Assembly (NCBI RefSeq): GCF_040047665.1
Contig: NZ_CP157355.1
Coordinates: 3,162,001-3,226,000, forward strand
Length of the DNA stretch: 64,000 nt
DNA from: Chitinibacter sp. FCG-7
GTDB lineage: Bacteria; Pseudomonadota; Gammaproteobacteria; Burkholderiales; Chitinibacteraceae
Reading direction: 5' to 3'
The notes under the pieces are model-generated. The model saw only the letters and a list, made by a program, of their open reading frames with translations, was not told where the DNA came from and ran no database searches. How positions within the stretch are numbered: the stretch's first letter is position 1; every line of letters starts with the position of its first letter. Position numbers and translations under genes: made by a program. This document shows, piece by piece, positions 9,959 through 64,000 of this stretch.

Positions 9959-9976
9959 TTTACGCAAACATCGTGA

Positions 9977-10439: not shown

Positions 10440-11495
10440 TTAGTCTTTGGCGACCGTTAAGTAAACGGTAATTTCTTCACGGTCGTGATAGAGGTGCTTG
10501 GCGGTGATTTTGCATGGCATGCCGGCTTTTTCCAGCTTGGACTCGATCAGGCCAAAGCATTTGCATACTTCCAGATAGCGCTTTTTCATCGGTAGCTTCA
10601 GATTGAAAATCGAGCGGCGCGCATTACCTGCGGCAACCCATTTCGCAATCAGTTCGGCCACGCGGATCGGCTGCTCGACCATATCGCAAACCAGCCATTC
10701 AACCGGGTTTTTAGGGCGGAATTTGAAACCATCATCGCGAATATGTTTCACCTGATGGTGGCCGTCCATACTGCCCTTCATCGGGCCATTATCAATGGCA
10801 AACACTTTCAGTCCACGACTCACCAGCTGATACGTCCAGCCGCCCGGTGCAGCACCCAGATCAACCGCGCTCATGCCTTCGCGCAATTTGCTTTCCGGGT
10901 TTTCAACCAGCACCAGAATCGCCTCAAGCAATTTGAGCGTTGAACGGCTAGGGGCATCAACTGGCATGCGCAGGCGCGGAATGCCATTGACCCAGTCCGT
11001 GTCACGGGCTGGGCGCGAGGCGATAAAGACTTCATTTTGCTGCGGGAAAAACAGGTGCAGGCGATTACGGACCCGCTGTGGCTGCAGCCAGTTGTTTTCA
11101 GCGGCGGCTTTGGCGACATAATCGCCAAATTTACGGCAAAAGCTGGACAGCGATTTGCCATCGTTGGTATCGGGGTATTCAAGCCAGACATCGCTAAAAG
11201 CCGAATCTATCGTTTTGAGCGAATTCACAATTGGCGTCAGGCGGTCTTTGCCGACCAGCGTAATCCGGTCGTGCACCAGCAAGGTCTGGCGCGGGAAAAT
11301 CAGCTGTTTGTTGACAAGGCTAGTTAATGCTTTGGGATTTTTCTCGCTAGGGGTGAAGACAATCCAGCCATCGCCGCGCTCAAACGTGCCTTCACACAGG
11401 GCGTTATCGGCAATTTCTTCGGCGCAGTCTGGCTCAAAACCGGGGCGGCAATAAGCAAGAAGCGCTTTTGGGATGGCGGTGTTGATGTCAGACAT
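10440..11495 (-). CDS. rlmM: 23S rRNA 2'-O-ribose methyltransferase RlmM (C2498)
   Basis: 351 residues from ATG 11495, which gives the usual family length; upstream in-frame ATGs lack binding sites. A THUMP-like N-terminal part precedes a Rossmann methyltransferase with SAM motif [16 protein letters not shown]. Later segments are [12 protein letters not shown] and the catalytic lysine region [13 protein letters not shown]. The family modifies C2498 of 23S rRNA. No operon partner is evident. Confidence 0.92.
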
Positions 11496-11596
11496 GGTTG
11501 AGCTCGGCATTAAAAGGCGCAAGGATACCCAAGAAACGCATTCGATGCCATGCACCTTATCGGCTTGAGGACCTGGTACGCTGATCGGTGATGGCT

Positions 11597-39922: not shown

Positions 39923-40144
39923 TTTTGTCTGGCAGTGGCTGGCAGCGGTAAGCTGTGTGAAGCAAAACTTTTCCATGGTATTCGTCATGGTATTGCACTA
40001 ACCTCGTACCATGAGTACAGTAGTGATACCATCATTTTATTTTGTAGTGATGATGGTATTGGTTTGTGCTAAGTCATTGAAAATAATGTAAAAGAAGCAC
40101 ATTTTTTCGATGTTTTGAATGATGGTATCAAGACGAGGTTTTTT

Positions 40145-43437: not shown

Positions 43438-44029
43438 GTATGTACAACGCCCAACTCACCGCTGGTTCTGTTGATGATCAACGAAAGCCGCCGCATAGCC
43501 GAGTTGCTACTGCAAAAACCAGATGACGCAGCTTGGAGTCAAGCCATCAAGCTTGACAATATTTTGCAAAAAAATAACCCAGCGACCGCTATTCGCCAAG
43601 CGCGTTTAATTCGGTCGCGCTTAGAGTTGCTGGATGGCGAGGGGATTGAGCTCTGTTGCCAATGAAGGTCTTGAAGTCTGCACGCAAATATTGCTACTCG
43701 CGACAATTCGACAAAGTCGGCTCTTGGGCGATTTTTTAATTGATGTATATCGAGGCCAGCTGCGCCGTCTTGAGAGCACACTCAACATTCGTGATTGGGA
43801 TGTATTTCTGCATGAATGTGAACAGCGCGACCCAACAGTGCAAAATTGGACGGCAAACACCCGCGCCAAAATGTTGCAGGTGATCTTACGCATTCTCACC
43901 GAAGCGGCCTATTTAGAATCTGGCCGCTCGCTCAAAATGACGCCTCCATTATTGCACCCGCGAGTGCGCGCCTACCTCGCCAATCACAAAGATCACTACG
44001 CCCGTGAAGCTATGGAACACAAACAATGA
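43434..44029 (+). pseudogene. brxA: brxA (DUF1819) interrupted by two frameshifts
   Basis: The protein reads in three successive frames. Frame from ATG 43434 gives MSMYNAQLTAGS; a one-base shift near 43470 continues as LMINESRRIAELLLQ through RSRLELLDGEGIEL. A second one-base shift near 43654 continues as VANEGLEVCTQILLLATIR to the stop at 44029. Both are single extra bases, each in a CTGTTG context. BrxA is a small winged-helix DNA-binding BREX protein. No stop-free frame of full length (~197 aa) exists. The rest of the sequence is well kept, so the damage is recent or is a sequencing error. It ends in ATGA overlap with brxB. Confidence 0.8.
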
Positions 44030-48462: not shown

Positions 48463-48512
48463 TGTTTGGTCTGAAAGTGGCGTTGTACTAAAGGAAATTG
48501 GGAGTGCATTCG

Positions 48513-49106
48513 ATGTCTGAACAGCCATCAAAGCAGCTTGTCGTCGTTGGTGGCCCCAATGGTAGTGGTAAATCGACTTTTGCCGATGAATATGTCGCTT
48601 TGTACCAGCTGCGTTATCTAGGTGCCGATGCCATCGCCGCCGAGTTAGCCCCGAACGACCCATTTAGCGTGCGGGTCGAAGCGGGAAAGCAATTCGTTCG
48701 CCGCTTAAAAGCGGCGTTGCAGGCGGGTGAATCCTTGGTGATTGAGTCCACACTCGCGGGTAAAGGCTTGGATAAACACCTATTGCAAGCGAAAACGTTT
48801 GGCTATCAAATCAGTCTTGTTTTTGTCACGCTGGATTCGCCAGATTTATCGATTGCCCGTATCCGCGAACGAGTAGCCAATGGTGGGCATCATGTGCCCG
48901 ATGAAGATGTCATTCGCCGTTTTGACCGTGCGCGCAACCAGTTCTGGCATACCTTCCGCCATTTGGCGGATGACTGGCAGCTCTTTAGCAATACCGGCGA
49001 AGGCTTTACTTTGATTGCGCTCGGTCAGAGCGACGATTACGAAGTAACGGATATCACAGAACTTAACGAATTCACTGCCAGTTTGGAGCAAACCCATGAG
49101 CACTAA
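48513..49106 (+). CDS. Zeta-toxin-like P-loop kinase
   Basis: 197 residues from ATG 48513, with GGGAG eight bases upstream. Walker A is GGPNGSGKST (13-22). The family segments YLGADAIAAELAP, GESLVIESTLAGKG, FVTLDSPDLSIARIRERV and HHVPDEDVIRRFDRA match bacterial zeta-toxin-like proteins. True zeta toxins phosphorylate UDP-GlcNAc; this shorter type may have another substrate. It overlaps a small partner gene by 11 bp, the layout of a toxin-antitoxin pair, but the partner is not an epsilon antitoxin. Such pairs are common cargo in BREX islands. Confidence 0.85.
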   Translation: MSEQPSKQLVVVGGPNGSGKSTFADEYVALYQLRYLGADAIAAELAPNDPFSVRVEAGKQFVRRLKAALQAGESLVIESTLAGKGLDKHLLQAKTFGYQISLVFVTLDSPDLSIARIRERVANGGHHVPDEDVIRRFDRARNQFWHTFRHLADDWQLFSNTGEGFTLIALGQSDDYEVTDITELNEFTASLEQTHEH

Positions 49107-49578: not shown

Positions 49579-50061
49579 ATGACTAAACCAACTCCAGAGC
49601 CCTTTCTTGTCGATCCACTGAGTGATAGCGCTAAAAGCGAACGAAAGAATCTACTGATTTCATCTTTTTTTGGGTTGGTTGTTGCGCTCACTGGTTTGGT
49701 GCCAACGAAAATATCTTCGCTTGGCATTGAGTTCAGTCTGGTTGATCAGGCGAATTTCTTGAAAATCATGGCCGTTCTAGTCGCTTACTTCCTCATTGGT
49801 TTTGTGGTCGTTGCAACTGCAGACGCATTCATTCTTCGGAAAAAATATCAAGATTATTTAGAGCATGTGCAGTCGTATCTGGACAGTTGGACTGAGGATG
49901 ATCAAGTTGCACACGACAATTTTTACCATTCATTGCCGACAATAAGTTGGTTTTATCAGAAATCAAAATGGGTGCTTTTAGCGAGGTTTGTCTTTGATTT
50001 CATCTTGCCTATCGCATTGGGTGTGACTTCCTGCGCTTATTTGCTCAATAAAGTCGCCTGA
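49579..50061 (+). CDS. Small membrane protein inserted in the BREX locus
   Basis: 160 residues from ATG 49579, with AAAGGTG upstream. Predicted membrane helices: SSFFGLVVALTGLVP, FLKIMAVLVAYFLIGFVVVA and a C-terminal FVFDFILPIALGVTSCAYLL. Between the second and third lies a soluble segment rich in acidic residues and aromatics. No family is recognised. It sits 28 bp before pglX, so it is probably in the BREX transcript and could serve as an effector or anchor (inference). Confidence 0.75.
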   Translation: MTKPTPEPFLVDPLSDSAKSERKNLLISSFFGLVVALTGLVPTKISSLGIEFSLVDQANFLKIMAVLVAYFLIGFVVVATADAFILRKKYQDYLEHVQSYLDSWTEDDQVAHDNFYHSLPTISWFYQKSKWVLLARFVFDFILPIALGVTSCAYLLNKVA

Positions 50062-50089: not shown

Positions 50090-53000
50090 ATGAACAAATC
50101 CAAACTCAAATCCTACGCCCCCGAGGCGCGCAAAGACTTTATCGCCATGGTGCAAAGCCGTGCCGCGCAGTTGGGTATTGCTGAATCTAAAGGCCAGCTC
50201 CAAGTCGAGCCGTGCGAGGTGCAGGGCCAAGTAGCCATTATCGCTGGCCAAGCCTTCCCTGCCAAAATCGCCAATCAGCGCAATGTGCTCATCGCCCGCA
50301 TGCAGCGCGATGGCTTTGCCGCTACCATCGAGGCCATTGCCTACACCTGGTTCAACCGTTTTGCCGCTCTGCGCTTTATGGAGTTGAAAAACTACCTCAG
50401 CCACGGCCAGCGGGTGCTCTCAAGCGTGACTGAAGGCGGCTTGCCGGACATCCTTACTCACGCGCTCGAACTCGTCGAAAGCGGCGATCTGCCCGGCATC
50501 AGCGTCGCGGACGTCTCTGAGCTCAAGCTCGCCAGCAAAGATGGCGAGCTGTACAAACGCCTGCTCGTCGCCCAGTGCAACCAGCTCGCCGCGCACATGG
50601 GTTTTCTGTTTGAACGCATCGACGACGACAGCGAGCTGCTGCTGCCCGACAACCTGCTGCGCACCGACTCGGTCATCCGCAAGCTGGTCGACAGCATCGA
50701 CGAGGCCGACTGGGATCAGGTCGAAATCATCGGCTGGCTCTACCAGTTCTACATCAGCGAGAAAAAAGACCAGGTCATCGGCAAGGTGGTGAAGTCCGAA
50801 GACATCCCCGCCGCCACGCAATTGTTCACGCCCAACTGGATCGTCAAATACCTGGTGCAAAACAGCGTTGGCCGCCTCTGGTTGCAAGCCAACCCCAGCT
50901 CCACGCTCGCCAGCCAGATGCAGTATTACATCGCCCCCGCCGAGCAAACGCCGGAAGTCAACGCCCAGCTCGACGCGCTGATCAGCGCCCGCATTAGCGA
51001 GGACGGCGACACGCTCAACCCCGAATCGATCACCGTGCTCGACCTCGCCTGCGGCTCAGGCCACATTCTGGTCGAAGCCTACGATCTGTTAAAAGCCATC
51101 TATCAAGAGCGCGGCTACCGCGAGCGCGACATTCCGCGCCTGATTCTGGAAAAGAACCTCTACGGCCTCGACATCGACGACCGTGCCGCCCAGCTCGCCG
51201 CCTTTGCTTTATTGATGCGCGCCCGCGCCGACGACCGCCGCCTGTTTAGCGACCCGGTCCAGCTCAACGTCTTGTCACTACAGGAAAGCGCCGGGCTCGA
51301 CGCTGCGCAACTGGCGCAAGATCTGGGGTTGAATGATGCGGCGGAACGCAACGCGCTCAATACCCTGCTTAGTATCTTTACGCAGGCCAAGACCTTCGGG
51401 AGCTTGTTGCAGATACCCCATGCGCTCGCGCAAACCTTGCCGCAACTCGCCAACCGCATCGCCGCCGCGCAAAACAGCGGCGATCTCTACGCCCAATCCG
51501 CCGCCGCCACGCTGCAACCTTTGCTGCAACAAGCGCAAGTGCTGGCGCGGCAGTACGATGCGGTGGTCGCTAACCCGCCGTATATGGGCGACAAAGGGCA
51601 GTCACCTGAATTAAAAGGGTTCATAAAAAAATATTATCCAATTTGTCGTGCGGATCTATTTGCACCCTTTATGATGCAAAGTTCTTTCTTGACTAGGAAG
51701 GAAGGTTTTTTCGCTCTCGTAACAATGCAATCCTGGATGTTTTTGACTTCATTTGGCGATTTGCGCGCTCAATTGCTTGAATTAAAAACAATATCCAGTA
51801 TGGTTCACATAGGTTTTAATAGCTTTCCAGAGCTAAATTCCAAGGTGGCTTTGGCTTGTGCTTCAGTTTTTAGGAATACTCATCTTTCTGGGTTTGATGG
51901 TGTCTATGTTGATTTAAATAATGCGCCGCATGCAGCTGACAAAGAGTTGTTGTTTAATGTCGAGCATGAACGTAGGCGCTATATGGCAAAGCATGAGGAT
52001 TTTTATTTGATTCCGTCAAGCCCAATCGCATACTGGGTTTCTTCCTCTATTCGAGAGTTGTTCAAGAAAAACCCAAGGATGGCGACTTGCGCTGATGCAC
52101 GGCAAGGCATGGCGACAACAGATAATAAAACCTTCCTAAGGTTTTGGTTTGAGATATCAAGCAAAGAAATTGAACAAGGCGGTGAGAATTATCATGGGAA
52201 ATGGTTTCCCTATAACAAAGGTGGCGAGTACAGGAAGTGGGCTGGTAACAATTTAAATGTTGTTAGGTATGAGAGAAATGGTGAGGTCTTGCTGGATTTG
52301 GTTAAAGGGAAGTATCCAAAAATTAGCGATCCTGAGTTTGTAATTAAGAATAGGCGATATTATTTTAGGTCAGGAATTACTTGGACTGATATTTCTCTCG
52401 ATATTTCGGCGAGACTGGTGCCAGTAGGGTATATATTTGACACTGCCGGCCCTATGGCTTTCTTTGAGGCGGAGGATGATCAAATGTGTTGCATGGCTTT
52501 GTTGAATAGCAAGCTATGTGGTTTGTTGTCGAGTATTTTGAATCCTACGCTGCATTTTACTTTGGGAGACTTTCAAAATCTGCCGTTTCTTAAGGTTAAT
52601 AATCTGGCAGAGCTAAGAGCGCTGATAGATCATGCTGTGGACGTAGCCCAAGCCGACTGGGATGCAAGTGAAATATCTCCTGATTTTCAGAAATTAGAAT
52701 TTATCTTTAAAGGAGCATTAGTTAAAGAATCATGGTCTAACTGGGAGGCGGATTCTTTGGGGCGAGCTTCACGCTTGGCTGAAATTGAAACTTCTATTAA
52801 TCAAATATTCAGAACTGAATTCCATTTGGAGCACGAGTTCGATCCATTTGTGTCCCAGCAAGAGGTGACCTGCTTACGAGCCGACCGCGAAAAAGACATG
52901 CAACGGCTGGTGTCCTACGCCATCGGCTGCATGATGGGGCGCTACAGTCTCGATGAGCCGGGGCTGGTGTATGCGCACGCAGGCAATGTAGGCTTTGACC

Positions 53001-53380
53001 CACAGCGCTATACCCGCTTTGCCGCTGATGCCGACGGTATCGTGCCGGTGAACGATCTGCCGTGGTTTGCCGATGATGCCACCAACCGCGTCAAAGAATT
53101 CCTCGTCGCCGTATGGGGGCAGGACACGCTGGCGGAAAACCTCGCCTGGCTGGCCGATAGCCTTGGCCGCAAGGCGGACGAAACGGCGGAAGACGCGCTG
53201 CGCCGCTATATCTCCGGCAGCTTTTTCAAAGATCACTGCCAAACCTACAAAAAGCGCCCGATCTACTGGCTGTTCTCCAGCGGCAAGCAAAAAGCCTTCG
53301 AAGCGCTGGTCTACCTGCACCGCTACAACGACAGCACGCTCGCCCGCATGCGCGCCGAATACGTCGTCCCGCTCACCTAG
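50090..53380 (+). CDS. pglX: BREX adenine-specific DNA methyltransferase PglX (C-terminus split off)
   Basis: 1096 residues to a TAG at 53378-53380. SAM motif I VLDLACGSGHILVEAYD (~317-324) and catalytic NPPY (495-498). Codons ~507-920 are strikingly AT-rich while both flanks are GC-rich; that block covers the expected target-recognition domain. The frame ends at MRAEYVVPLT, about 85 residues short of the family end, and the missing end is in the next frame (53385-53639). PglX methylates the fifth adenine of a 6-7 bp site to mark self DNA. Confidence 0.93.
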   Translation: MNKSKLKSYAPEARKDFIAMVQSRAAQLGIAESKGQLQVEPCEVQGQVAIIAGQAFPAKIANQRNVLIARMQRDGFAATIEAIAYTWFNRFAALRFMELKNYLSHGQRVLSSVTEGGLPDILTHALELVESGDLPGISVADVSELKLASKDGELYKRLLVAQCNQLAAHMGFLFERIDDDSELLLPDNLLRTDSVIRKLVDSIDEADWDQVEIIGWLYQFYISEKKDQVIGKVVKSEDIPAATQLFTPNWIVKYLVQNSVGRLWLQANPSSTLASQMQYYIAPAEQTPEVNAQLDALISARISEDGDTLNPESITVLDLACGSGHILVEAYDLLKAIYQERGYRERDIPRLILEKNLYGLDIDDRAAQLAAFALLMRARADDRRLFSDPVQLNVLSLQESAGLDAAQLAQDLGLNDAAERNALNTLLSIFTQAKTFGSLLQIPHALAQTLPQLANRIAAAQNSGDLYAQSAAATLQPLLQQAQVLARQYDAVVANPPYMGDKGQSPELKGFIKKYYPICRADLFAPFMMQSSFLTRKEGFFALVTMQSWMFLTSFGDLRAQLLELKTISSMVHIGFNSFPELNSKVALACASVFRNTHLSGFDGVYVDLNNAPHAADKELLFNVEHERRRYMAKHEDFYLIPSSPIAYWVSSSIRELFKKNPRMATCADARQGMATTDNKTFLRFWFEISSKEIEQGGENYHGKWFPYNKGGEYRKWAGNNLNVVRYERNGEVLLDLVKGKYPKISDPEFVIKNRRYYFRSGITWTDISLDISARLVPVGYIFDTAGPMAFFEAEDDQMCCMALLNSKLCGLLSSILNPTLHFTLGDFQNLPFLKVNNLAELRALIDHAVDVAQADWDASEISPDFQKLEFIFKGALVKESWSNWEADSLGRASRLAEIETSINQIFRTEFHLEHEFDPFVSQQEVTCLRADREKDMQRLVSYAIGCMMGRYSLDEPGLVYAHAGNVGFDPQRYTRFAADADGIVPVNDLPWFADDATNRVKEFLVAVWGQDTLAENLAWLADSLGRKADETAEDALRRYISGSFFKDHCQTYKKRPIYWLFSSGKQKAFEALVYLHRYNDSTLARMRAEYVVPLT

Positions 53381-53384
53381 CTGC

Positions 53385-53639
53385 ATGGCAGAACGCATCA
53401 AACTGCTGGAAGACGACTCCCTCAAAGCCAGCACCGGCGCAACCAAAAAAGCCATCGACAAACAGATCGACAAGCTGAAAAAGAAACTAGAAGAACTGCG
53501 CCTCTACGACGAAAAACTCCGCCACTTCGCCGACCAACGCATCACGCTGGATCTGGATGACGGCGTGAAAGTCAATTATGGTAAATTCGGTGATCTGCTG
53601 GCGGATGTGAAAGCGATTTCCGGCGGATCAGACGATTAA
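53385..53639 (+). pseudogene. pglX: Detached 3' end of pglX
   Basis: 84 residues from ATG 53385: AERIKLLEDD, a lysine-rich helix and RITLDLDDGVKVNYGKFGDL, the standard C-terminus of BREX-1 PglX. One extra T at 53378 explains the shift: without it the protein reads EYVVPLTSCMAERIKLL. It could be translated alone from its ATG, or PglX works without it, or the extra base is an error. Confidence 0.75.
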
Positions 53640-53662: not shown

Positions 53663-54820
53663 ATGCATTTAAAATCACTGCATATCAAAAATTTTCGCGC
53701 GCTGGAAGACTTCCAAGTCAGCAAGCTGGGCCGTGTCAATTTGATCGTCGGCAAGAATAATTCCGGCAAAAGCTCGGTACTGGAAGCGCTGCGGATTTAT
53801 GCGGGGAATGCGCATCCACATTTATTGGAAGATCTTGCCATAAGTCACAATGAGAAATGGCGACTTAATACTAAAGAGTTTGAGTTACAGGATGATTTGC
53901 CTTTTAGATCTTTCTTTGCAAACCGGAGTTTTCCTAAAACTGATGGCGTTGGAATTGATATCGGAGATGGTACCGGTGAAAATTCCGTGAAGATTGAACA
54001 TGTTTTTTATTTTGAGGAAGAATACGCTGAATCTGATGCCGAAGGTGAAGGTAGAACACGTCTTCGAAGAATGCAAGTTTTAAAAAGTGAGTTGGCTAAA
54101 TTTGAAGGTGAGGATATTAATGAATCACTTGCGATTCAAATCGACGATAGTAACCTTGTGATCCTGCGTTTTAGTGGCCCTAATGGCAGACTTAGGCCTC
54201 TCCTGAGAATGCATAAAAGGATGCCATGCTCTTATATTTCTACCCAGTTCACTTCTGAAGATGATTTAGCTGATATGTGGGATAGAGTCGGTCTCACGGA
54301 AGCACAGGAATTTGTTAAAAGTGCACTTCGTATTGTTAGTCCTGATTTCGAAGAAATTCTATTTGTTCGAGATGATGAAAGTGATGAGAGTGATTCTGGT
54401 TCATTGTCTAGAAGTGCAATCGTTAAGTTGAAGAATGTGAATATACCAGTACCTTTGAATAGTATGGGCGATGGTATTTTTCGGATTCTTCAACTATTTC
54501 TTAAGCTGTTTGCTGCCAAGGGCGGTTTTTTGCTAATTGATGAATTCGAAAATGGCCTGCATTACTCAGTTCAAGAGGAAGTCTGGCGACTTATTTTTGA
54601 TCTGGCTGACGTGCTTGATATTCAGGTCTTTGCAACGACTCACAGCTGGGACTGCATCGAGAGCTTTGCCAAAGTCGCCGTTGAAAAAACGGCAACAGAA
54701 GGCGTGCTATTCCGCGTTGGCCGCAGTGTGAGAACCAGCGATCAGGGCCGAGTGATTGCAACGGTGTTTGACGAGCAGAAGCTATTCAATATCACCCAAT
54801 CAGATGTTGAGGTGCGCTGA
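53663..54820 (+). CDS. OLD/AAA15-type ATPase
   Basis: 385 residues. ABC-type head: LKSLHIKNFRALEDF, Walker A GKNNSGKS (30-37), Walker B with D293-E294 in FLLIDEFENGLHY, and the H-loop ATTHSWDC. A variable AT-rich middle (codons ~55-310) is inserted, with an acidic stretch ESDESDSGS. It overlaps the DUF3226 gene by one base (TGATG), so the two are a unit. ATPase plus TOPRIM pairs of this layout include PARIS (AriA/AriB) and split OLD nucleases. It would sense phage proteins or DNA and release or activate the TOPRIM partner (inference). Confidence 0.85.
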   Translation: MHLKSLHIKNFRALEDFQVSKLGRVNLIVGKNNSGKSSVLEALRIYAGNAHPHLLEDLAISHNEKWRLNTKEFELQDDLPFRSFFANRSFPKTDGVGIDIGDGTGENSVKIEHVFYFEEEYAESDAEGEGRTRLRRMQVLKSELAKFEGEDINESLAIQIDDSNLVILRFSGPNGRLRPLLRMHKRMPCSYISTQFTSEDDLADMWDRVGLTEAQEFVKSALRIVSPDFEEILFVRDDESDESDSGSLSRSAIVKLKNVNIPVPLNSMGDGIFRILQLFLKLFAAKGGFLLIDEFENGLHYSVQEEVWRLIFDLADVLDIQVFATTHSWDCIESFAKVAVEKTATEGVLFRVGRSVRTSDQGRVIATVFDEQKLFNITQSDVEVR

Positions 54821-55476
54821 TGGCTGATCGTTTATTACTGGTTGAGGGTGAGGCAGATCGTGCTTTTTTTGAGCTGCTTTGCAGGTCACAAACCATTCTG
54901 GCTGGCATTAATGTCGCGCCGCCTGTTGAGGTCGGAGGGCGTAAAAATACCAAGCAGGGTGTTTTAAATCTGCTGGCTACGCTGATTGGTGATTTAAACG
55001 ATGGTCGATTGCAGGCTCTGGCGATTGTAGTGGATGCGGATTGGGTGGCTAATGGTGGTGGTTTTGCCAATACAGTTAGTCAAGTCACTCGTGAGGTAGC
55101 TGCACAGGGTTATGACACGCTGCCCATAGCCCTTGCTGCTGGTGGTTTGATCTACAAACACAACGATGGTTTGCCCGATCTTGGCGTTTGGGTAATGCCA
55201 GATAATGCATCCGAGGGCATGCTGGAAGACTGGATCAAGCAATCGGTATTGCCCGCTGAACGCGGCATTTTGGCGCAAGCCGAAATGACCGTGGCCTGTC
55301 TAGTTGTCCCAAAATTCAATGCAAATCGCTTGAGTAAAGCTGAAGTGGCAACTTGGCTGGCTTGGCAAAAGAGGCCTGGTGAAGGTCTTTATTATGCAGT
55401 CGAAGGCAATCTGCTTGACTCCACTGCGGCATTACATATTGGTTTGGTTCAGTGGTTGAAAACTGTGTTTCCGTAA
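54820..55476 (+). CDS. DUF3226 TOPRIM-like protein, partner of the ATPase
   Basis: 218 residues. TOPRIM-type acidic sites: E9 in LLLVEGEADRAF and the D72-x-D74 of AIVVDADW. The family hallmark is VWVMPDNASEGMLEDWI. A lysine/asparagine loop RKNTKQGV follows the first strand. In PARIS the TOPRIM partner (DUF4435) is a tRNA nuclease toxin; DUF3226 is a different TOPRIM family, so the target here is open. It overlaps the ATPase stop. Confidence 0.82.
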   Translation: MADRLLLVEGEADRAFFELLCRSQTILAGINVAPPVEVGGRKNTKQGVLNLLATLIGDLNDGRLQALAIVVDADWVANGGGFANTVSQVTREVAAQGYDTLPIALAAGGLIYKHNDGLPDLGVWVMPDNASEGMLEDWIKQSVLPAERGILAQAEMTVACLVVPKFNANRLSKAEVATWLAWQKRPGEGLYYAVEGNLLDSTAALHIGLVQWLKTVFP

Positions 55477-55529: not shown

Positions 55530-58500
55530 ATGAATTTCCCAAGTGAAGCCGTCGATACCGCTACGGCAAATTCAGTATCAAACCCTAGCTTTCAGCTCAA
55601 AAAACTCATCCTGATTGATTCGCTCAGTATCGGCCGGATTATTGAGTTTCCGGTGGATGGCGGGGCGGTTTTGACTGGGCGTAATGGCCGTGGCAAAACG
55701 TCGATGCTGCAATTGTTGCTGCTGTTTTACGGTGAAAGCCCCAATCGGATTGTGACCACCGAAGCGGGGAAACACACCTTTACTGGCTACTATCTACCGC
55801 GTACTACTTCCTATATTGCTTTCGAATATCAGCGCCCCGATGGTGGGCTGCGGATGGTGGTGGCATATGCCGATAAGCATGGCGAGAAAGTGTGTTTCCG
55901 CTTGCTGCGAGAAGGCTTTGATCCCAGGCAGTTCGTGACCGCTGATGGGGCTTTCGTGCCTGCGCCACAGTTTGTGCGCCATTTAAAGCTGGCTGGCTTT
56001 CGCTGCCATGAACAGCAAATTGAATCTTTGGCTGAATACCGCGCCATCATGCTGGCAACGCACAGCACTAGTGGTGATCGCAAACGCTTGCGCGAGATTC
56101 GTGAGCTTTCGTCAGATTACGGTTTTACGCTGCCCAATAAACCACTGCATCAGATTGAAAAAATCATCACCGGTATGTTCCGCCGCAAGACTAATTTTGA
56201 AGACTTGCAGAGCATGGTGGTGGAATGTACCAGCGATACGCAGCAAACGCTGAGTATGACGGCAGATCGTAAAAAGCTGGAAGATTGGCCGCGCCACTAT
56301 GCCGCCTACACGTCGGTGATGACGCTTGAGCCGGTGATGGAGCAAGCCGATCAAGCGGCACAGCGGCTGGAAGCGACGCGTGCCAGCTTGGGCGAAGTCA
56401 AAGGCAAGCTCGCGTCCTTGCTTTTGCATTTAGAAGACCAATGGCATGGCTTCGCTGAGCAAAAATCTAAGCTCGACACCGAGCATCAGCAGGCACGTAA
56501 TCGATATACCGATGCGCGTGGGCAGTTACAAAGCAAAAAAATTGAAGCAGAAAAAAATGCGCAGTATGCCGAGGGCAAAGCCACCGAGCTTCAGCAGGCG
56601 TGGGATCGCTACGAGCAGCAAGGGATTCGGTCAAGCGATGAGCTGGTGAAGCGAGCCCCTGATTTGCGCGATGAAAAACAGCAGCTTGAGAAACGGCAGG
56701 AAACGCTGCTGGGTGAGCAAAGCGAAATTGCACAACGTTATGAAACCTTAAAGCAAAAGCAGCAAGCACGGTTTTATTCCGAGAAAGAAGATCTTGACCA
56801 ACAGGCGGATCAGGAACGGCAGCGATTTGAAACACTCGAACACCAGCTAGAGCAGAAAATTGCAGGGGAGCGACTTGATTTAGATGCCACGCAAAAAACG
56901 CAGCGCGAGCCTTATGCCTTGTCCTTAGCACAAGCGCAGGAAGCTGTTGGTTCTTGGCGTACTCAGCTTAATAACCCTCAAGTACCTCCAGAAAGTCAGG
57001 CCCTGGTCGATGCCAAGCAGCAAGCGTTGACCGACGCGCTAGAAAAGAAAAATCAGCGTTCTAACGTCCAGCAAGAAAAAACGACTGCATTTAGTACAGC
57101 AAAAATCAATTTCGAACGGCAAGAGCGCAAAGTTGAAGAAAAGAAAAAAGAGCTAGCCAAATTTGAGTCTGCACTGCTAGAGAAGCAGCGCTTTGCCATG
57201 CCCGAGCCGGGCTCCTTGCTGCATTTTTTGCGTTCTGAATGCCCTGACTGGACGCAAGATATTGCACGCGTAATTGATGGCGAACTGTTAACGCGCACTG
57301 ATTTAAGCCCGCAGTTTATTGAGCGACTAGATTCGCTGTATGGGCTCAATCTTGATTTATCTAAGCTGGCTCCGCATGCGCTGGCCGACGAATCAACGGC
57401 ACAATTTGAAATTACGCAGCAGCAACGCCAAGTCGCCCTGTCTCGTACAGAGTTGGAGGCTGAGCAAGCGACACTCGGCCAATGCAGCAGTGTCTGTGCG
57501 CAAACTGAAACGGCCATGCGGCAACATGAGCAAGTATTGTTGCAAGCCATGGCTCACGTGGAAACTGCCAAGGCTGAATTGGCATCAGCGAAACAGCAGC
57601 TAAACGAGCAACGAAATCTCGCCAAAGCGAATGCGGAAGCGGGCTTGGCCAAGGCCAAACTGGTATTGGAGCATTGTCAGCGCGAGATCGACCAACTTGA
57701 TCGTGCTGGTCGAGATGCTCGCGATGAGCTGGAGCAAAAGGCACTGCAGGAGAAAAAAGCTTTAACCGAGCAGAAACGCGGAGCGATTGATGCACTGAAT
57801 ACCAAAGAAAAAGCAGCGAGAGCCGAGCTAGCACAAACGCTGCTGCAATTGGATGTCGAATGTCGTTCTGCGCTGCAGGCGAAGGGTATTGATACTGAAC
57901 GTTTGCAAGAAATTGCTGATCGTTTGCGGCTTATTGATCGTGATCTTGGTCAAATCAAATTGGTCATTGAATCGGTGCAGAGTTGGCGTCTCTGGCTGCG
58001 CGATGAATGGCCTAAGCGTGAAAATTGGCTACAAGATGCTCGCCAACATCGCGCGCAGGAAGAGGCATTCAACCAGAAGCTCAAAACGCTAGATCGTGAG
58101 TGGAAAGAGGGTGACGTCCGATATCAAACTCAGTTTGAACAACTCAAGCAACAGCTCGAAAAACTCGACCAACAGCAAAAATTGACGCGTACTCGACTTG
58201 AAAAGATGGTGGCATACACCGCGATCGAGGTCCGTACGTTTGATCCTAGCTGGACTTTAGATCTGCTCGTTGGCTTAGCCAATAAAGCGTATGACGATGA
58301 GCAGCAGAGTAAAGCCGAAGTGCGTCGCTTAGTGAACGAACTTCGGCGGGGCTTCGCGAAAACGCAGGGGGCGAAACCGAGTGAATTTATCGAGTTAAAT
58401 CACCTTGCCCTGATTGATGCACCCGATGAAGCATGGGTGCCGCTATTTAGAAGCTGGTTTACCGAAGAGCATCGTACTGTGCAGCGCATTTTGCTGATGG

Positions 58501-59216
58501 ACGCGCGTTTGATCGCGGGTACGGTGATTCAATTTCATCGCACCATGGATGAGTTCCATAAAAAAGTGCTGCAATTTAATCGCGAATTGCAAAATCATCT
58601 GGATCAAAATATTTCATTTGAAAGCATTAGCCAGGTGAAGGTTGAGGTGGTTTCGACGATCCGTGAATTGGCGTATTGGCAGTCGATTTGCGAGATGGCC
58701 GAGGCGAATCATCATTGGGTTAATGGCATGAGCAATGAATTACCGCCTGCGCCGTTTGCAAAAACGCTGGATGATTTGCTGAGCCATTGGGAAACCAAGT
58801 CTGGGATTCAGGCTGATTTAAAGCAGCTGATCCGGATTCAGGGTGAAGTGGTTGAAAATGGTAATACGCGCCAATTCAGGAAAGCTTCGGATTTGGAAGC
58901 GGTGTCATCCAATGGCTTGTCCTACCTAGTGTTGGTCAGTATTTTTGTGGCCTTTATTAACCGGATTCGCCGAGATGCCAATGTGAATATTGTCTGGGCT
59001 TTGGATGAGCTTAAAGATCTCGATAGCGGCAATGTGGTGCATCTGATCGAGCTATTAAAGTGCAATCACATCACGCTGGTGTCGGCGTTTCCAGATCCAG
59101 ACCCAGAGACTTTGGCGTTATTTAATCATTGCTTCACGGTGGAACCAGACCGACGCTTGATGCAAGTGAGAGTCGCTGACCCATATTTGCTGGAGGAGGA
59201 GGCCGCTCATGTTTGA
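55530..59216 (+). CDS. SMC/MukB-like ATPase (JetC/MksB-like, DUF3584 type)
   Basis: 1228 residues from ATG 55530, which lacks a good binding site. Walker A is GRNGRGKT (50-57); the YYLPRTTSYIAFEY block follows the first ATPase half. Long coiled coils span ~280-540 and ~650-1000 around a hinge-like domain (~560-640: SLLHFLRSECPDWTQDIA). The C-terminal half has signature SSNGLSYL (~1126) and Walker B ALDELKDLD with D1159-E1160. It should form the motor of a condensin that extrudes DNA loops. It leads a four-gene operon; in Wadjet and Mks loci this gene normally comes after the MukF- and MukE-like genes. Confidence 0.85.
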   Translation: MNFPSEAVDTATANSVSNPSFQLKKLILIDSLSIGRIIEFPVDGGAVLTGRNGRGKTSMLQLLLLFYGESPNRIVTTEAGKHTFTGYYLPRTTSYIAFEYQRPDGGLRMVVAYADKHGEKVCFRLLREGFDPRQFVTADGAFVPAPQFVRHLKLAGFRCHEQQIESLAEYRAIMLATHSTSGDRKRLREIRELSSDYGFTLPNKPLHQIEKIITGMFRRKTNFEDLQSMVVECTSDTQQTLSMTADRKKLEDWPRHYAAYTSVMTLEPVMEQADQAAQRLEATRASLGEVKGKLASLLLHLEDQWHGFAEQKSKLDTEHQQARNRYTDARGQLQSKKIEAEKNAQYAEGKATELQQAWDRYEQQGIRSSDELVKRAPDLRDEKQQLEKRQETLLGEQSEIAQRYETLKQKQQARFYSEKEDLDQQADQERQRFETLEHQLEQKIAGERLDLDATQKTQREPYALSLAQAQEAVGSWRTQLNNPQVPPESQALVDAKQQALTDALEKKNQRSNVQQEKTTAFSTAKINFERQERKVEEKKKELAKFESALLEKQRFAMPEPGSLLHFLRSECPDWTQDIARVIDGELLTRTDLSPQFIERLDSLYGLNLDLSKLAPHALADESTAQFEITQQQRQVALSRTELEAEQATLGQCSSVCAQTETAMRQHEQVLLQAMAHVETAKAELASAKQQLNEQRNLAKANAEAGLAKAKLVLEHCQREIDQLDRAGRDARDELEQKALQEKKALTEQKRGAIDALNTKEKAARAELAQTLLQLDVECRSALQAKGIDTERLQEIADRLRLIDRDLGQIKLVIESVQSWRLWLRDEWPKRENWLQDARQHRAQEEAFNQKLKTLDREWKEGDVRYQTQFEQLKQQLEKLDQQQKLTRTRLEKMVAYTAIEVRTFDPSWTLDLLVGLANKAYDDEQQSKAEVRRLVNELRRGFAKTQGAKPSEFIELNHLALIDAPDEAWVPLFRSWFTEEHRTVQRILLMDARLIAGTVIQFHRTMDEFHKKVLQFNRELQNHLDQNISFESISQVKVEVVSTIRELAYWQSICEMAEANHHWVNGMSNELPPAPFAKTLDDLLSHWETKSGIQADLKQLIRIQGEVVENGNTRQFRKASDLEAVSSNGLSYLVLVSIFVAFINRIRRDANVNIVWALDELKDLDSGNVVHLIELLKCNHITLVSAFPDPDPETLALFNHCFTVEPDRRLMQVRVADPYLLEEEAAHV

Positions 59217-59835
59217 ACGTACGGTTCGGCTCTTACTGGAAGGTACATTTGTTTGCGAGATTACGCATCGTGAAGCGTTTTCCTTTTTGAATAACCCAGC
59301 CAATCAGCAGAGCGTGAATGATTATTTGGGCAAAATTGGTCTGAAACTATCCAGAACTCAGCATGGTGGAGCATTTTTTGCTGCGCATATCGAAACGGGT
59401 GGGCCAGAGAAAAAAGCCGCGAAAGAAGTATTCATCAAGATCAAACATGAGTTGCGCCCCTTGGTGGCTTTCCTTGAATTGGTAATGCGTGTCTCGCAAA
59501 AGGATGATGTGATTTGCGCTGGCTTTGTGATTGAGACGGCAAGCTTGATGTTATCGATTGATAGTAATCCAACGCTGCGCAACGATTTGCAGTCGCTAGC
59601 TAACTTGGTGAAAGGGCAAGCTGCCGATAGCTCGGATCGTGCCCGATTTAATAAAGTGCTGAATCGCTTTAAGGACGAAGGTTATTTGTTTCTCGCCAAT
59701 AGTGAGCGCGAAATTTATCAAGTGACTGGCAAGATCGAATTCATTATGGAGGCCATTGCTTTCTTGTCCGAACATGAAAAGATCGGGCTTGATGACGAAG
59801 AAACCGAAGTCACCAGCCAAGGATCATTGCTGTGA
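59209..59835 (+). CDS. MukE/MksE/JetB-like subunit
   Basis: 208 residues; ATG 59209 overlaps the SMC stop by 8 bp. An N-terminal hydrophobic helix (RTVRLLLEGTFVCEITH) is followed by winged-helix-like segments (SVNDYLGKIGLKLSRT) and a second one (FNKVLNRFKDEGYLFLANSE, YQVTGKIEFIMEAIAFL). Length and layout fit the MukE/JetB family of small kleisin-binding proteins. Identity rests on these features and on operon context; primary sequence similarity in this family is low. Confidence 0.65.
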   Translation: MFERTVRLLLEGTFVCEITHREAFSFLNNPANQQSVNDYLGKIGLKLSRTQHGGAFFAAHIETGGPEKKAAKEVFIKIKHELRPLVAFLELVMRVSQKDDVICAGFVIETASLMLSIDSNPTLRNDLQSLANLVKGQAADSSDRARFNKVLNRFKDEGYLFLANSEREIYQVTGKIEFIMEAIAFLSEHEKIGLDDEETEVTSQGSLL

Positions 59836-61082
59836 CCACGGGCGTTGCACATATTGCAGCCTATCTTGAGGTGCTGCATAAACATCGTGATCTAGTTGCC
59901 GATGCCTATATCAATGGCGGTATCACGCTGACTGATGAAACTCAGCGCGCCTTGTATTTGCTCAAGCAGCACCGTGCGCTGGTGCCTGCGGTGCAGGATG
60001 AGTTTCGCCTCAATTCAAGTTTAAGCCGTCACTTGGATGAAGTTTTTCTTCGGCAGCGCAATTACGCCGTCAGTGCCAACTTTGCCGAGCAAATTGATCG
60101 TTTGCCACAATTGATTGATGAGTATCTGAAGGCATGCCTTGATAACCGTGCTGAAGATCGAGATACCTACTCGGATGACTTTAAATCGGGTGTGTTTGAG
60201 TTGGCCGAAGGACTCGATTCATTCTTAGCCCTGATGCGCTCCTTGGCGGATAACCGTTTTGCCAATGTCAGCACCCTAGAGCAGAAAAAACGCCAGAATG
60301 AGTTTTATCTGGGCAAGTGCGAACAAATTGGCATTGCTTTAGGTGCATTACAAGATGCGGCATTATTGGAGCAATTAAGTGGTTCATCGTTATTACAGCC
60401 CTTGCAGCAAATCTACCAGAGTCAAATTTTAGAGCGCTTGCCGCAATGGCGTGCCTCGTTGATGGATATTTCAACGGTCTTAAAAGAATATCTATACCGC
60501 CTGCGCCAGGTCGAGCCACAAGCTCAGCGTTTACGTGCATTTGCCCAGTTTCTACGAAAGAATCCAGATTACATCCCGCCTGATGTGGATGAACTCAATC
60601 ATTTGCCTGATTGGTGCTCAACGTTCGAAGGTTTCAAAATCTCAGCCCATGCTGATTTATCGGATAATCTGACTCGCGATGCTTTAGTTGAAGTCGCGCA
60701 ATCCATACCTGCTCCAACATTGCGCTTTGCGGTAGAGCGCCAAGCTGGCCAGATGATTACGGATGACGCGCAAGGCCGAGTCAACATTATCGCCGCATCA
60801 CCAGTTCAGCGGGCATTTGCATTGTATTTGAAGGCAGTAAGACAATCTCAAGAACCGATTTCAGCCATTGAGTGGCTACGAAAAATGCCCGACTATCAGT
60901 CCATTGATGAGGCTGCATGGCTGGTTTATTTACTGCATGCTTGGCAGATTCTAGAAGCCAAGAAAAAGATATCTGGGTTAGCGATGCGCCGTGTGGAAAA
61001 CACTGTCGCCTACCCGGGTCTGAGTGAAGCGATGTCTGGCAACCTGATTGTGAGCGATGTGGAAATATGGAAAAAAGCTTAA
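59832..61082 (+). CDS. MukF/MksF/JetA-like kleisin
   Basis: 416 residues from GTG 59832, overlapping the previous stop (GTGA). Mostly helical: AYLEVLHKHRDLVADAYI, FRLNSSLSRHLDEVFLRQRN, a middle of long amphipathic helices, then LRAFAQFLRKNPDYIPP and a C-terminal domain. This fits the MukF-like kleisin, which bridges the heads of the SMC dimer. It overlaps the TOPRIM gene by 16 bp. The assignment is by length, helical pattern and position; I am less sure of it than of the SMC gene. Confidence 0.6.
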   Translation: MTTGVAHIAAYLEVLHKHRDLVADAYINGGITLTDETQRALYLLKQHRALVPAVQDEFRLNSSLSRHLDEVFLRQRNYAVSANFAEQIDRLPQLIDEYLKACLDNRAEDRDTYSDDFKSGVFELAEGLDSFLALMRSLADNRFANVSTLEQKKRQNEFYLGKCEQIGIALGALQDAALLEQLSGSSLLQPLQQIYQSQILERLPQWRASLMDISTVLKEYLYRLRQVEPQAQRLRAFAQFLRKNPDYIPPDVDELNHLPDWCSTFEGFKISAHADLSDNLTRDALVEVAQSIPAPTLRFAVERQAGQMITDDAQGRVNIIAASPVQRAFALYLKAVRQSQEPISAIEWLRKMPDYQSIDEAAWLVYLLHAWQILEAKKKISGLAMRRVENTVAYPGLSEAMSGNLIVSDVEIWKKA

Positions 61083-61942
61083 TCAAAACCTTGCTGCGTA
61101 TTGTTCAGAATGATGACGAGAAAACTTCGTCTTCGCGTGGATTAGAACAATTTGCCAATATGCATCAAATCGGTCACTTGCAGGGTAGAAGCTATGTATT
61201 TAATGCTGCCGATAAGCAAATCATTAAAGACCTACTCAAGGTTGAAGCGGGGATTGATGCTGATTCAACACGCCCCGAGGCATGGGATGGATTAAGTCGT
61301 ACGGAAAGCTTGGCATTAGCTAGTAATGAAAAACTCAGTCAAAGTAATGTGAGATTGAACCGCGTTGCAGTTAAAGCTTTAGCCGGAAGCGTGGTTTGCC
61401 TTGGTGATGAGGCGCTGAAACTTCCTGATGGAAGCCATTTGGAACTGGATTGGCAGCAAGTTGCAATACTAAATCGGCACGATGGCGTGATGTTGGTTGA
61501 AAACTGGGAGGCATTTGAAAATATCCATCAGTTGCAGTTTGAGCCCAACATGGCATCTCGCAATCCACTCGTCGTGTTTCGGGGTATGCCGCAGGTGTAT
61601 CGTCAAGACTATGTAGTCGCGCTTTTGGATTCTCTCAAACTTCCGGTTTATGCATTTGTCGACTTTGATCCTTCCGGTCTCGTGATCGCGCTGAGTACAC
61701 CTTATTTCGTGAGTTTAATTGCACCACCCAATGACATGCTGCAAGCGGCCTTTAAAGCGTGCACCAACGGCGCAAGATTTCAAAGCCAACTGCCAGAAAC
61801 GCAAGCTGTACTAGAACAGTGTAATCATTCTGAAATTAGTCAATATTGGCAATTGTTTAAAAATGCTGGAGTAGCCTTACCTCAAGAATATTTCTTGTCA
61901 GGCATTTCATTAGAAATAACAAACGAATTAACTCAATACTAA
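61067..61942 (+). CDS. TOPRIM protein resembling JetD/MksG/Topo VI-A
   Basis: 291 residues, shorter than JetD (~390). The C-terminal TOPRIM has the acidic E145 in VMLVENWEAF, LVVFRGMPQVYRQD, and D199-x-D201 in AFVDFDPSGLVIA, matching the metal site of JetD and topoisomerase VI-A. The N-terminal ~100 residues may be a winged helix. JetD is the nuclease that cuts plasmid DNA reeled in by JetABC. Here it should do the same for this SMC complex, on phage or plasmid DNA (inference). pglZ begins 8 bp after its stop. Confidence 0.8.
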   Translation: MEKSLIKTLLRIVQNDDEKTSSSRGLEQFANMHQIGHLQGRSYVFNAADKQIIKDLLKVEAGIDADSTRPEAWDGLSRTESLALASNEKLSQSNVRLNRVAVKALAGSVVCLGDEALKLPDGSHLELDWQQVAILNRHDGVMLVENWEAFENIHQLQFEPNMASRNPLVVFRGMPQVYRQDYVVALLDSLKLPVYAFVDFDPSGLVIALSTPYFVSLIAPPNDMLQAAFKACTNGARFQSQLPETQAVLEQCNHSEISQYWQLFKNAGVALPQEYFLSGISLEITNELTQY

Positions 61943-61949
61943 ATTGGCC

Positions 61950-64000
61950 ATGACAAAAATCCAGCAATCTCTTTTTTCTCAATTTGAGCAACATCGTTTT
62001 GTCTTTTGGCACGACATCGAAGCCAATTTTGCCTCTGAACTAACGGGCTTAGGCGATATCACCATTGTTCAGCTTGATAGCACCCCAGCATTAGCCGTGA
62101 AGCTAGATATTGAACGCGCACCTGCAGATAGCAAATGGCTGTTTTATAGCCAGCAAGCGCAGCCTGCGCCTGAGGATGATTGGCTGCTGGATGTGCGTAT
62201 GCGCGCCAAGCCTTTTCATGCGGATGAAGCATCGATTCAGTTAGAAGATCTGGGCTTGCACACGGTTTCTGTGCGTGCGCATTTGAAAGAGAGAAGTGCA
62301 TTTTTACGCGCCAAAGAGCGTTTTGAGAAACTCAAGCGACTAACCTTGTCGACCGATCAGGCGGCGGATCTGGATCGAAAAATGATTGCGGTGCTGATTC
62401 GGGCTGAGCAAGCCGATTTGTTCAGTATGCTGACCAAGCTGTTTACGGCTATGGATGCAGAAGGCGAGGTTAATTTGGCGGTCGAGCCTAAGGGCTGGGC
62501 TGAGTTATTGACCTACGGTTTACGCGCTGCATTTTGGGATTTGGTCGAGGCGGAGTTGGGTTATCGTGATACGAACCCGTCTTTGCGTGATTTGTTGTTC
62601 CATTTGATGGTGACCGATTTAGCGCAAGGTTTGGTCGGCGATTTGCCAAGCCAGTTATCCCATTTCCAAATTCATGATCGTGCTAAGGCGGCATCGGCTT
62701 CGGTGTTTTTGTCGCAGTGGCGTGGCAGTATCACGCATTACGGTAGCTATGATGCAGTCTCTGCTGCCGTTGCTGAAGCATTGCAACTGACGACGATCAT
62801 TGCCACGTTGCCAGCCGAGAAAATGCTGGATGCGATGACGTTTGCCGAGGTTGAAAAGTGGATTATCAAAGATCTGCGTGATCGGATATTGAGCAGCGCA
62901 GTTGCATCGGCTGACGCGGTACATGCCATTTTTGAGCGCCGCCGTGACGGACATTGGGCGAACCCCAAATTGGCTGCCACGAGTGATGTCACTCGCGCAT
63001 TGCTCAATTGCTATGAGGCACTGGAAGCCGCAGCCGATTTCTTGTGTTTGTGTGAGCAATACAAAGCTGGCTTTAGTTTTGATAGCGCTATGTCGGGCAT
63101 CGAAGCGTATCAAAAAACGCTTTACCACTTTGATCAGCATTATCGCCATTTCCATCGTGCCGCCGAGCAAGTCGATATGATGGGCTGGCAATTATTGCAA
63201 TTGCTGCGCGAGCGCGTTGAAGAGGCCTATACCGGTTGGTTTGTGCCGCAACTGGGTATTGCATGGAGCAAGTTGCTAGAGGGCGATAGCGGGTTACTCA
63301 AAAACTGGTCTGTACCTGGCGTGATTAATCAGCAAGACTTTTATCGCCGCGAAGTAAAAGCCACGCTGGATAACACCAGCGTGAAGCGCATCTTTGTGAT
63401 TATCTCGGATGCTTTCCGCTATGAAGCCGCTGAAGAGTTGAGTCGACAAATTCTCACACGCAATAAATACAAAACCGAGCTACGGGCAATGCTGGGTGTT
63501 TTGCCAAGCTATACCAGTTTAGGCATGGCCGCATTATTACCGCACGATACTTTGAGTTATAAAGTCGGCGCTAATATTAGCGTTTTGGTTGATGGTAAAT
63601 CGACCGCATCTTTAGAAGATCGTAATGCTATCTTGGCGAAACACGGCGGCATTGCCATTAATTGGGAAGAGTTGGTTAGCCTAGGAAAAGATAAAGCACG
63701 TGATCGAGTTCGCGATGCGTCCGTCGTGTACATCTACCATGACCAGATCGATATGCTGGGTGATAAGGCAGCATCGGAGAATAAAACGTTTGAGGCGGTC
63801 GAAAACACCCTCGAAGAGCTCAATCGCTTGGTGGGTTTTGTGGTTGGCAATTTGGCGGCATCAACCGTGCTAGTGACCGCCGACCATGGCTTCTTGTATC
63901 AGGAATCTCCGCTGGATAACGCAGATCGTTCTACCTTGAATATCAAAGCCATCGGCGCATTGAAAGCCAAGAAGCGTTATGTATTGGGGAACGATCTAGG
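61950..64000 (+). CDS. pglZ: BREX phosphatase-fold protein PglZ (cut by window edge)
   Basis: Open from ATG 61950 to the window end (683 codons seen; family length ~830-860). The N-terminal MTKIQQSLFSQFEQHRFVFW is typical of BREX-1 PglZ. The alkaline-phosphatase core shows VIISDAFRYEAAEEL, SYTSLGMAALLPH, VVYIYHDQIDMLGDKAASE and VLVTADHGFLYQE with its metal-binding residues. PglZ works with PglX and is needed for both methylation and defence. brxL is expected next but is outside the window. Confidence 0.95.
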   Translation, partial: MTKIQQSLFSQFEQHRFVFWHDIEANFASELTGLGDITIVQLDSTPALAVKLDIERAPADSKWLFYSQQAQPAPEDDWLLDVRMRAKPFHADEASIQLEDLGLHTVSVRAHLKERSAFLRAKERFEKLKRLTLSTDQAADLDRKMIAVLIRAEQADLFSMLTKLFTAMDAEGEVNLAVEPKGWAELLTYGLRAAFWDLVEAELGYRDTNPSLRDLLFHLMVTDLAQGLVGDLPSQLSHFQIHDRAKAASASVFLSQWRGSITHYGSYDAVSAAVAEALQLTTIIATLPAEKMLDAMTFAEVEKWIIKDLRDRILSSAVASADAVHAIFERRRDGHWANPKLAATSDVTRALLNCYEALEAAADFLCLCEQYKAGFSFDSAMSGIEAYQKTLYHFDQHYRHFHRAAEQVDMMGWQLLQLLRERVEEAYTGWFVPQLGIAWSKLLEGDSGLLKNWSVPGVINQQDFYRREVKATLDNTSVKRIFVIISDAFRYEAAEELSRQILTRNKYKTELRAMLGVLPSYTSLGMAALLPHDTLSYKVGANISVLVDGKSTASLEDRNAILAKHGGIAINWEELVSLGKDKARDRVRDASVVYIYHDQIDMLGDKAASENKTFEAVENTLEELNRLVGFVVGNLAASTVLVTADHGFLYQESPLDNADRSTLNIKAIGALKAKKRYVLGNDL

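Follow-up and report, generated by a model that had tools for sequence, protein, structure and literature searches.

Wadjet is a well-studied immune motor that measures DNA, and most of the work on it, as reflected in the literature excerpts at hand, concerns type I. Three types have been named (PMC10586767, PMC12647877; both in excerpt), and the accessible part of the latter describes how JetABCD extrudes a plasmid and then activates the nuclease JetD. Here we describe a related cassette in Chitinibacter sp. FCG-7, located in a 64,000-nucleotide stretch of its genome (NZ_CP157355.1, positions 3,162,001 to 3,226,000; hereafter the window) and nested inside a BREX type 1 locus. Its four genes encode an SMC/MukB-like ATPase (C), a KITE subunit (B), a probable kleisin (A), and a predicted TOPRIM nuclease (D). 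The cassette is probably a distinct Wadjet-like branch, outside types I and II, that works much as Wadjet does.

Gene order and relation to described Wadjet types

Reference Wadjet loci were found through the JetD_C domain, which matched 24 of 185 genomes of the class. Among the 20 stretches fetched, seven were truncated or ambiguous and were left out, and 13 held four neighboring same-strand open reading frames (ORFs) with lengths in the expected range. The 13 loci were divided into group 1 (six loci) and group 2 (seven loci). All read A-B-C-D; their A and B genes were recognized from location and length. The C and D proteins of L099 and L104, and likewise those of L106, match PADLOC type I models, and A of L099 is DUF3375. 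One type II locus was also read and has the same order; the type II query additionally matched an unannotated Priestia plasmid. A search for a type III reference matched 0 of 299 genomes, controls included, and the comparison of order covers the 13 JetD_C loci and the type II locus.

The Chitinibacter cassette differs from these loci. Four ORFs on the forward strand (55530–61942) follow one another as C-B-A-D with overlaps of 8, 4, and 16 bp. Our ORF calls agree on this point with the original prediction, a reading of the DNA letters alone, which had also placed the cassette in a BREX type 1 locus with pglX on one side and pglZ on the other; both genes were found there. The order is not a chance arrangement, as it recurs complete, with one ORF per gene, in 39 of 48 loci (window counted). 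Each of the four genes is under purifying selection, with a ratio of nonsynonymous to synonymous divergence (dN/dS) of 0.05–0.17 between the window and three relatives.

Similarity to the PADLOC Jet models was low: C scored 15.2 bits, B 27.0 bits (JetB1), and D 14.4 bits, with no match for A. As a yardstick we used ten reference Jet proteins, which score 174–1627 bits in PADLOC models, rather than the PADLOC thresholds. Membership of Wadjet type I or II was considered and rejected on these scores, the gene order, and the length of D. The predicted distinct branch of condensin-plus-nuclease operons of the Wadjet/MksBEFG kind therefore stands, on the order, the family of D, and the weak PADLOC scores.

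We found no account of the C-B-A-D order, and no named subtype with exactly this order, among the papers listed in the literature search (the original Wadjet paper and preprints lay outside that search), and a name for this branch may possibly have been given elsewhere. The same literature held no mention of DUF7281, the family of D, and, judged by titles and the beginnings of abstracts, nothing on defence for DUF3584, the family of C. The part of PMC10853773 at hand contains nothing on the C-B-A-D order, and PMC5735904, also available in part, reports a phage match to DUF3584 at E 0.006.

Subunit assignments

C matched Pfam PF12128 (DUF3584) at 583 bits over residues 27–1204, i.e. its full length, bearing out the suggested resemblance to that family. 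Three conserved motifs (Table 1) are presumably the Walker A, ABC signature, and Walker B motifs of the ATPase head, and the SSNGLS-type motif is present in most of the five sequences compared. Profile comparisons of the head region with JetC returned 95.5% (group 1, residues 18–219) and 98.3% (group 2, residues 18–420) with alignment A1, and 79.8% and 98.1%, respectively, with alignment A7. Comparison with all 13 JetC returned 98.6–99.0%, but the best stretch lies in the coiled coil, so this value proves less. Controls with reversed sequences gave 6–15% for C and below 1% for A, B, and D, and mismatched subunits gave at most 2.2%. The best PADLOC match of C was AriA (28 bits). On the strength of these profile matches, C is assigned as an SMC ATPase subunit related to JetC.

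B matched Pfam MksE (PF21980) at 39.6 bits, above the cut-off of 27, and DUF4194 at 31.9 bits, slightly under the cut-off of 32.7. The 208-residue protein had been proposed to be MukE-like, and its MksE score places it within that group, although a direct comparison with MukE gave no sequence match. Profile comparison returned E 2.9e-5 (probability 73.9%) for JetB group 1 and E 3.4e-5 (71.9%) for all 13 JetB, with no match to the group 2 profile (2.6%); in a wider family set the value for all 13 was 75%. B begins MFERTVRLLLEG, without the N-terminal leader that most of the 13 JetB carry when their starts are called mechanically. Its aligned core starts at about residue 4, compared with about residue 46 in the JetB group 1 profile. 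These alignments assign B as a KITE subunit related to JetB and MksE, and what we claim of its divergence is limited to the absent leader, with no loss of a motif. A supposed loss of a JetB 'IFDR' motif was dropped, as the loose pattern occurs near the N-terminus of only 1 of 13 JetB and inside another.

A belongs to no Pfam or PADLOC family, scored below 2% against the JetA profiles of the 13 reference loci, and had no sequence match to JetA, to MukF, or to A of a Persicobacter locus described below, the wider family set included. A predicted model (predicted local distance difference test score, pLDDT, 79.9; predicted template modeling score, pTM, 0.41) was searched against the PDB with Foldseek, and the first five rows came from MukF, MukEF, or MukBEF entries. 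These matches were weak (best E 0.0044, TM-scores 0.15–0.24) and tied with other helical bundles. The proposal that the 416-residue protein is MukF-like thus retains a weak fold match, while sequence profiles are silent, and the model suggests that A is a probable kleisin. PDB sequence searches with A, B, and C each returned only matches judged to be chance or coiled coil.

D matched Pfam PF23947 (DUF7281) at 81 bits and the topo VI-A/Spo11 TOPRIM family at 30.6 bits, and a PDB sequence search returned topo VI-A at E 1.2e-4. Its predicted model (pLDDT 93.3) has MksG (8b7f) and JetD (7til) as top PDB structural matches. Profile comparison with JetD gave 12.7% (group 1), 90.8% (group 2), and 92.9% (all 13) with alignment A4, and 7.4%, 65.9%, and 87.8% with alignment A6; in the wider family set, all 13 JetD gave 95%. 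A Pfam search of D that admitted E values as high as 1 did not return JetD_C (PF09983), which has 0 matches genome-wide. The TOPRIM residues E145 and D199xD201 named in the original prediction are present and invariant in an alignment of 42 sequences, D itself among them. No tyrosine is invariant in this alignment, which argues against a topoisomerase reaction. MksG needs E236 and D279, with E349/E351 proposed as alternative nucleophiles, in the accessible portion of PMC10123090; we infer that these occupy the same positions as the aligned residues of D and JetD.

As expected from the original prediction, D is about 100 residues shorter than JetD (291 amino acids (aa) compared with 375–439 aa in the 13 reference loci). 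The TOPRIM part starts near residue 125 in D and near residue 247 in JetD; the N-terminal part of D is therefore the shorter one. JetD contacts the N-terminus of JetB, according to the part of a review available to us (PMC10586767). Because D has a shorter N-terminal part and B has no leader, docking of D would probably be unlike that of JetD, and these sequence differences suggest that D is probably recruited differently.

Table 1. Cassette genes, conserved sites, and adjoining BREX-locus genes, numbered from the first letter of the window
Feature	Position	Strand	Details
C: SMC/MukB-like ATPase, DUF3584	55530-59216	+	1228 aa; Pfam PF12128, JetC head-region profiles
B: KITE subunit, MksE/JetB-like	59209-59835	+	208 aa; Pfam MksE PF21980
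A: probable kleisin, MukF/JetA-like by predicted fold only	59832-61082	+	416 aa, GTG start
D: TOPRIM nuclease (predicted), DUF7281, MksG/JetD-like	61067-61942	+	291 aa; PF23947, model, PDB structural matches
C residues 50-57, GRNGRGKT (presumed Walker A)	55677-55700	+	G50, N52, G55, K56, T57 invariant 9/9
C residues 1126-1131, SSNGLS (presumed ABC signature-like)	58905-58922	+	S1127, G1129 invariant 9/9
C residues 1153-1160, NIVWALDE (presumed Walker B)	58986-59009	+	D1159, E1160 invariant 9/9
D active site (predicted), E145-N146	61499-61504	+	invariant 42/42; aligned with JetD 'IEN'
D active site (predicted), D199-x-D201	61661-61669	+	invariant 42/42; aligned with JetD 'DxD'
D Q273-E274	61883-61888	+	invariant 42/42; aligned with JetD C-terminal 'EQE'; phage copy has Q at 274
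pglX, BREX-1	50090-53380	+	frame ends early; C-terminal part 53067-53639 in another frame
PDC-M38A, AAA_15/OLD-like ATPase, outside cassette	53663-54820	+	PADLOC 492 bits
PDC-M38B, DUF3226 TOPRIM-like, outside cassette	54820-55476	+	PADLOC 253 bits, Pfam DUF3226 148 bits
pglZ, BREX-1	61944-63998, runs off window	+	TTG 61944 or ATG 61950; 820-codon frame in genome

Proposed mechanism

By analogy with Wadjet, we consider it likely that the cassette encodes an immune complex of its own branch, which would extrude circular foreign DNA by means of its SMC motor and cut it, independently of BREX. C, B, and A would assemble into a loop-extruding motor and load on DNA. A small closed circle that has been fully reeled in would stall the motor, and stalling would trigger D to cut the circle by metal-dependent hydrolysis. 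Discrimination would then depend on DNA topology and size, not on the BREX methyl mark. The division of labor, extrusion by C-B-A and cutting by D, follows JetABCD (PMC12647877) and MksG (PMC10123090) as described in the available parts of those reports.

The direct basis for this mechanism is the gene content and order, the conserved ATPase and TOPRIM residues, the fold match of D, the purifying selection, and the horizontal movement described below. Complex formation, the role of A as kleisin, extrusion, size sensing, and plasmid cutting would all follow the Wadjet precedent.

Distribution and phylogeny

Relatives of C were collected from plasmids (42 matching records, in 8 of which the match spans 80% or more of the query), GTDB species genomes (27 loci), near-relative genomes (6 of 100 over the cut-off, own genome counted), and phages (1 record). 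Gene order was surveyed with family profiles over 48 loci, with the phage record counted apart; two plasmid records holding only C fragments (L073 and L077), H2, and other matching plasmid records also lay outside this set. In the 39 complete loci, spacings measured from longest-ORF starts include many overlaps of 1–16 bp and some larger overlaps or short gaps. C is broken in three loci that retain the order (L062, L070, and L078, the last with A broken too), and two loci are cut by contig ends (L038 and L054). A Colwellia locus (L063, 13651–15506) holds C-B-A with no detectable D, and a Thiodictyon metagenome-assembled genome (L041, 9875–13660) holds C only; neither B nor A nor D was detected there. 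The usual order occurs in two Bacteroidota relatives: a Persicobacter plasmid (L071) reads A-B-C-D and a Parabacteroides distasonis record (L074) reads A-B-C. Their A genes were taken from annotated position and size and have no sequence match to A of the window.

The phage record, Dolichospermum phage Dfl-JY45 (PP438435.1, 209 kb), carries a complete C-B-A-D cassette at 86907–93262 (L123:5914–12269). Its proteins score 653 bits for DUF3584, 28.8 for MksE, and 117 for DUF7281, and A was matched by the family profile at E 4e-69. Its D keeps K89, E145, N146, R172, G173, D199, D201, and Q273, whereas E274 is replaced by Q and E88 by D. No named virion gene was seen in the approximately 165 of 209 kb examined, where annotations are mostly hypothetical, so the phage status of this record rests on the label of its depositor. 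PHROGs returned 0 families for six proteins of the phage stretch, and two scans of IMG/VR (D alone, C alignment) revealed no phage-borne copies. A tblastn search of INPHARED with D found nothing, whereas the C query recovered one record, in which D proved to be related; searches with D therefore under-detect.

These data bear on whether the same motor and nuclease might act against phages, or against phages and plasmids both, with phage DNA, e.g. circularized or replicating, as the trigger. Such a role would suit the BREX surroundings of the cassette and its neighbors, the OLD-like ATPase and TOPRIM genes, as well as the HNH, WYL, SIR2-WYL, and helicase-NOV_C genes close to the copy in a same-genus genome (G003). 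We nevertheless regard it as unlikely, given that the characterized relatives act on plasmids in the accessible parts of the reports on them (PMC10123090, PMC12287153, PMC12647877) and that the cassette itself is present in a phage record.

A tree of C was built by a quick method, with Shimodaira–Hasegawa-like approximate likelihood ratio test (SH-aLRT) support only, a midpoint root, and warnings on long branches and composition. In it, 47 family rows stand apart from MukB and 11 JetC (support 99), and 45 Pseudomonadota rows stand apart from the two Bacteroidota (support 80, modest), making the latter the nearest outgroup. It is plausible that the usual order is ancestral and that C-B-A-D arose once in this branch.

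A housekeeping or segregation role deserves consideration here, with the cassette as a condensin that maintains chromosomes or plasmids, in the manner of MksBEF, and D as a topoisomerase-like partner. The nearest outgroup does include the A-B-C locus without a nuclease, and 10 of the 11 plasmid records with unbroken cassettes exceed 100 kb, although plasmid size was not counted as support because large plasmids hold more genes anyway. Against upkeep, the cassette is patchy, with DUF3584 not found in two of six genomes of the same genus (own counted), and has been transferred horizontally; the acidic TOPRIM residues of D are invariant and a tyrosine is not. Together these points make upkeep quite improbable.

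In the IncC plasmid pVIM-Exn692 (L070, 5926–13676) the cassette lies beside Tn7-like transposition genes, and an IS256-like element splits C. In the conjugative Azospira plasmid pAZI09 (L018, 9929–16388) it lies approximately 6.6 kb from type IV CRISPR csf3. The Parabacteroides genes (6155–11585) adjoin housekeeping genes.

BREX surroundings

The surrounding BREX type 1 locus is complete in gene content (BrxA, BrxB, BrxC, PglX, PglZ type A, and BrxL). Upstream of the cassette lie a WYL regulator, brxA, brxB, brxC, two small ORFs, pglX, and the PDC-M38A/B pair, which the original prediction did not include; brxL lies beyond the window. PglZ matched TIGR02687 at 722 bits for the part in the window and 888 bits in the genome, which has one PglZ match and one BrxC match. 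The 131-aa frame of brxA covers only model positions 74–200, and an overlapping frame (43471–43665) resembles, by eye, its start. Thus brxA (43471–44029) and pglX each appear split over two frames, while the cassette frames are intact; BREX in the window may be failing, or the breaks may be small assembly errors. The small ORFs between brxC and pglX (48498–49106 and 49579–50061) comprise one AAA_33/zeta-toxin-like kinase and one without a family. A tyrosine integrase (40115–41332) lies directly upstream of the BREX locus, and no tRNA gene was found in the window. Promoter and terminator scans were uninformative, with fewer sites than in shuffles (5 vs 9.7 and 5 vs 11.2). Judged from gene spacing, one transcript common to the cassette and BREX is possible.

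Linkage was assessed by tblastn with the BREX proteins of the window in 40 other C-bearing loci, excluding L064, which is the window's own downstream stretch. BREX sequence was present in 1 of the 40, a count in which linkage could be missed at several loci with short flanks; the plasmid loci L070–L078, added later, were judged by annotation alone. That locus (L069, in the Iodobacter genome G035) contains M38A (57% identity), M38B (72%), the cassette with four open genes, and a pglZ stub interrupted by a stop codon; its genome has no BrxC match. A PglZ search of 17 genomes gave none over the cut-off, with only the Iodobacter genome matched. The cassette is also present, 73–91% identical, in two genomes of the same genus (G002 and G003), neither of which has a PglZ or BrxC match. 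These counts do not support the earlier suggestion that the cassette travels with BREX or uses its self/non-self mark; the cassette was found mostly without BREX. Co-function with BREX was rejected as the main explanation for the same reasons.

Synonymous divergence of the cassette is 0.41–0.53 between the window and Iodobacter and 0.86–1.59 between the window and G002/G003. For rpoB the relation is reversed (1.42 vs 0.58–0.61), and the C tree agrees with the closeness of the window and Iodobacter copies (support 97). These opposing divergences indicate that the nested block moved horizontally between genera. The placement of the cassette inside BREX is probably a defence-island insertion. Nucleases are widely embedded in BREX loci, OLD-TOPRIM pairs like M38A/B included, according to the available part of a 2026 survey (PMC12839542); a term search of its main text returns Wadjet, condensin, and kleisin 0 times and SMC once.

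That the cassette is instead a BREX accessory module, reading the PglX methyl mark or needing BREX proteins as the original prediction proposed, appears highly improbable: its position between pglX and pglZ with the D stop 1–7 bp before pglZ, the same nested block in a second genus, and the embedded nucleases of that survey are outweighed by the nearly absent linkage, by an open cassette beside a pglZ stub with no brxC match in Iodobacter, and by the broken brxA and pglX frames around an intact cassette in the window.

Comparison with known systems

The preferred reading, a Wadjet-like complex independent of BREX, would make this branch a useful counterpart to type I. Its other gene order, a nuclease shorter by about 100 residues, and a leaderless KITE amount to a natural experiment that could show which components extrusion-triggered cutting requires. 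With large plasmids and a phage record among its carriers, the question of how a sensor of DNA size leaves its own carrier unharmed becomes directly testable. Whether it should be regarded as a fourth Wadjet type is, in our judgment, evenly balanced; such a type would be set apart by the C-B-A-D order, DUF3584 as its motor, a compact nuclease of the DUF7281 family recruited unlike JetD, and a leaderless KITE. It would spread on plasmids, on chromosomal islands, and on one or more large cyanophages, and would both defend the host and arm mobile elements against one another.

Among known systems, BREX type 1 has only the locus in common with the cassette, whose proteins match no BREX family. MukBEF resembles it loosely through the MukF-like predicted fold of A, but is ordered mukF-mukE-mukB with no adjoining nuclease gene. 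Wadjet type II has the four subunit roles, but its one locus read (L122) is A-B-C-D with a DUF2398 B of 438 aa, a C of 1392 aa, and a D of 447 aa. The Persicobacter plasmid locus is closer, with C at 213 bits for DUF3584, B at 119 bits for MksE, and a D of 285 aa that aligns at E 1.7e-10; it differs in its usual gene order and in a D whose DUF7281 score, 25.1 bits, does not reach the cut-off of 27. Wadjet type I and MksBEFG likewise combine an SMC, a KITE, a kleisin-like protein, and a TOPRIM nuclease in one overlapping operon, and profile comparison links C to JetC and D to JetD, with the fold of D matching MksG and JetD. They differ from the cassette in their A-B-C-D order, a longer JetD that carries JetD_C where D carries DUF7281, and the leader on most JetB.

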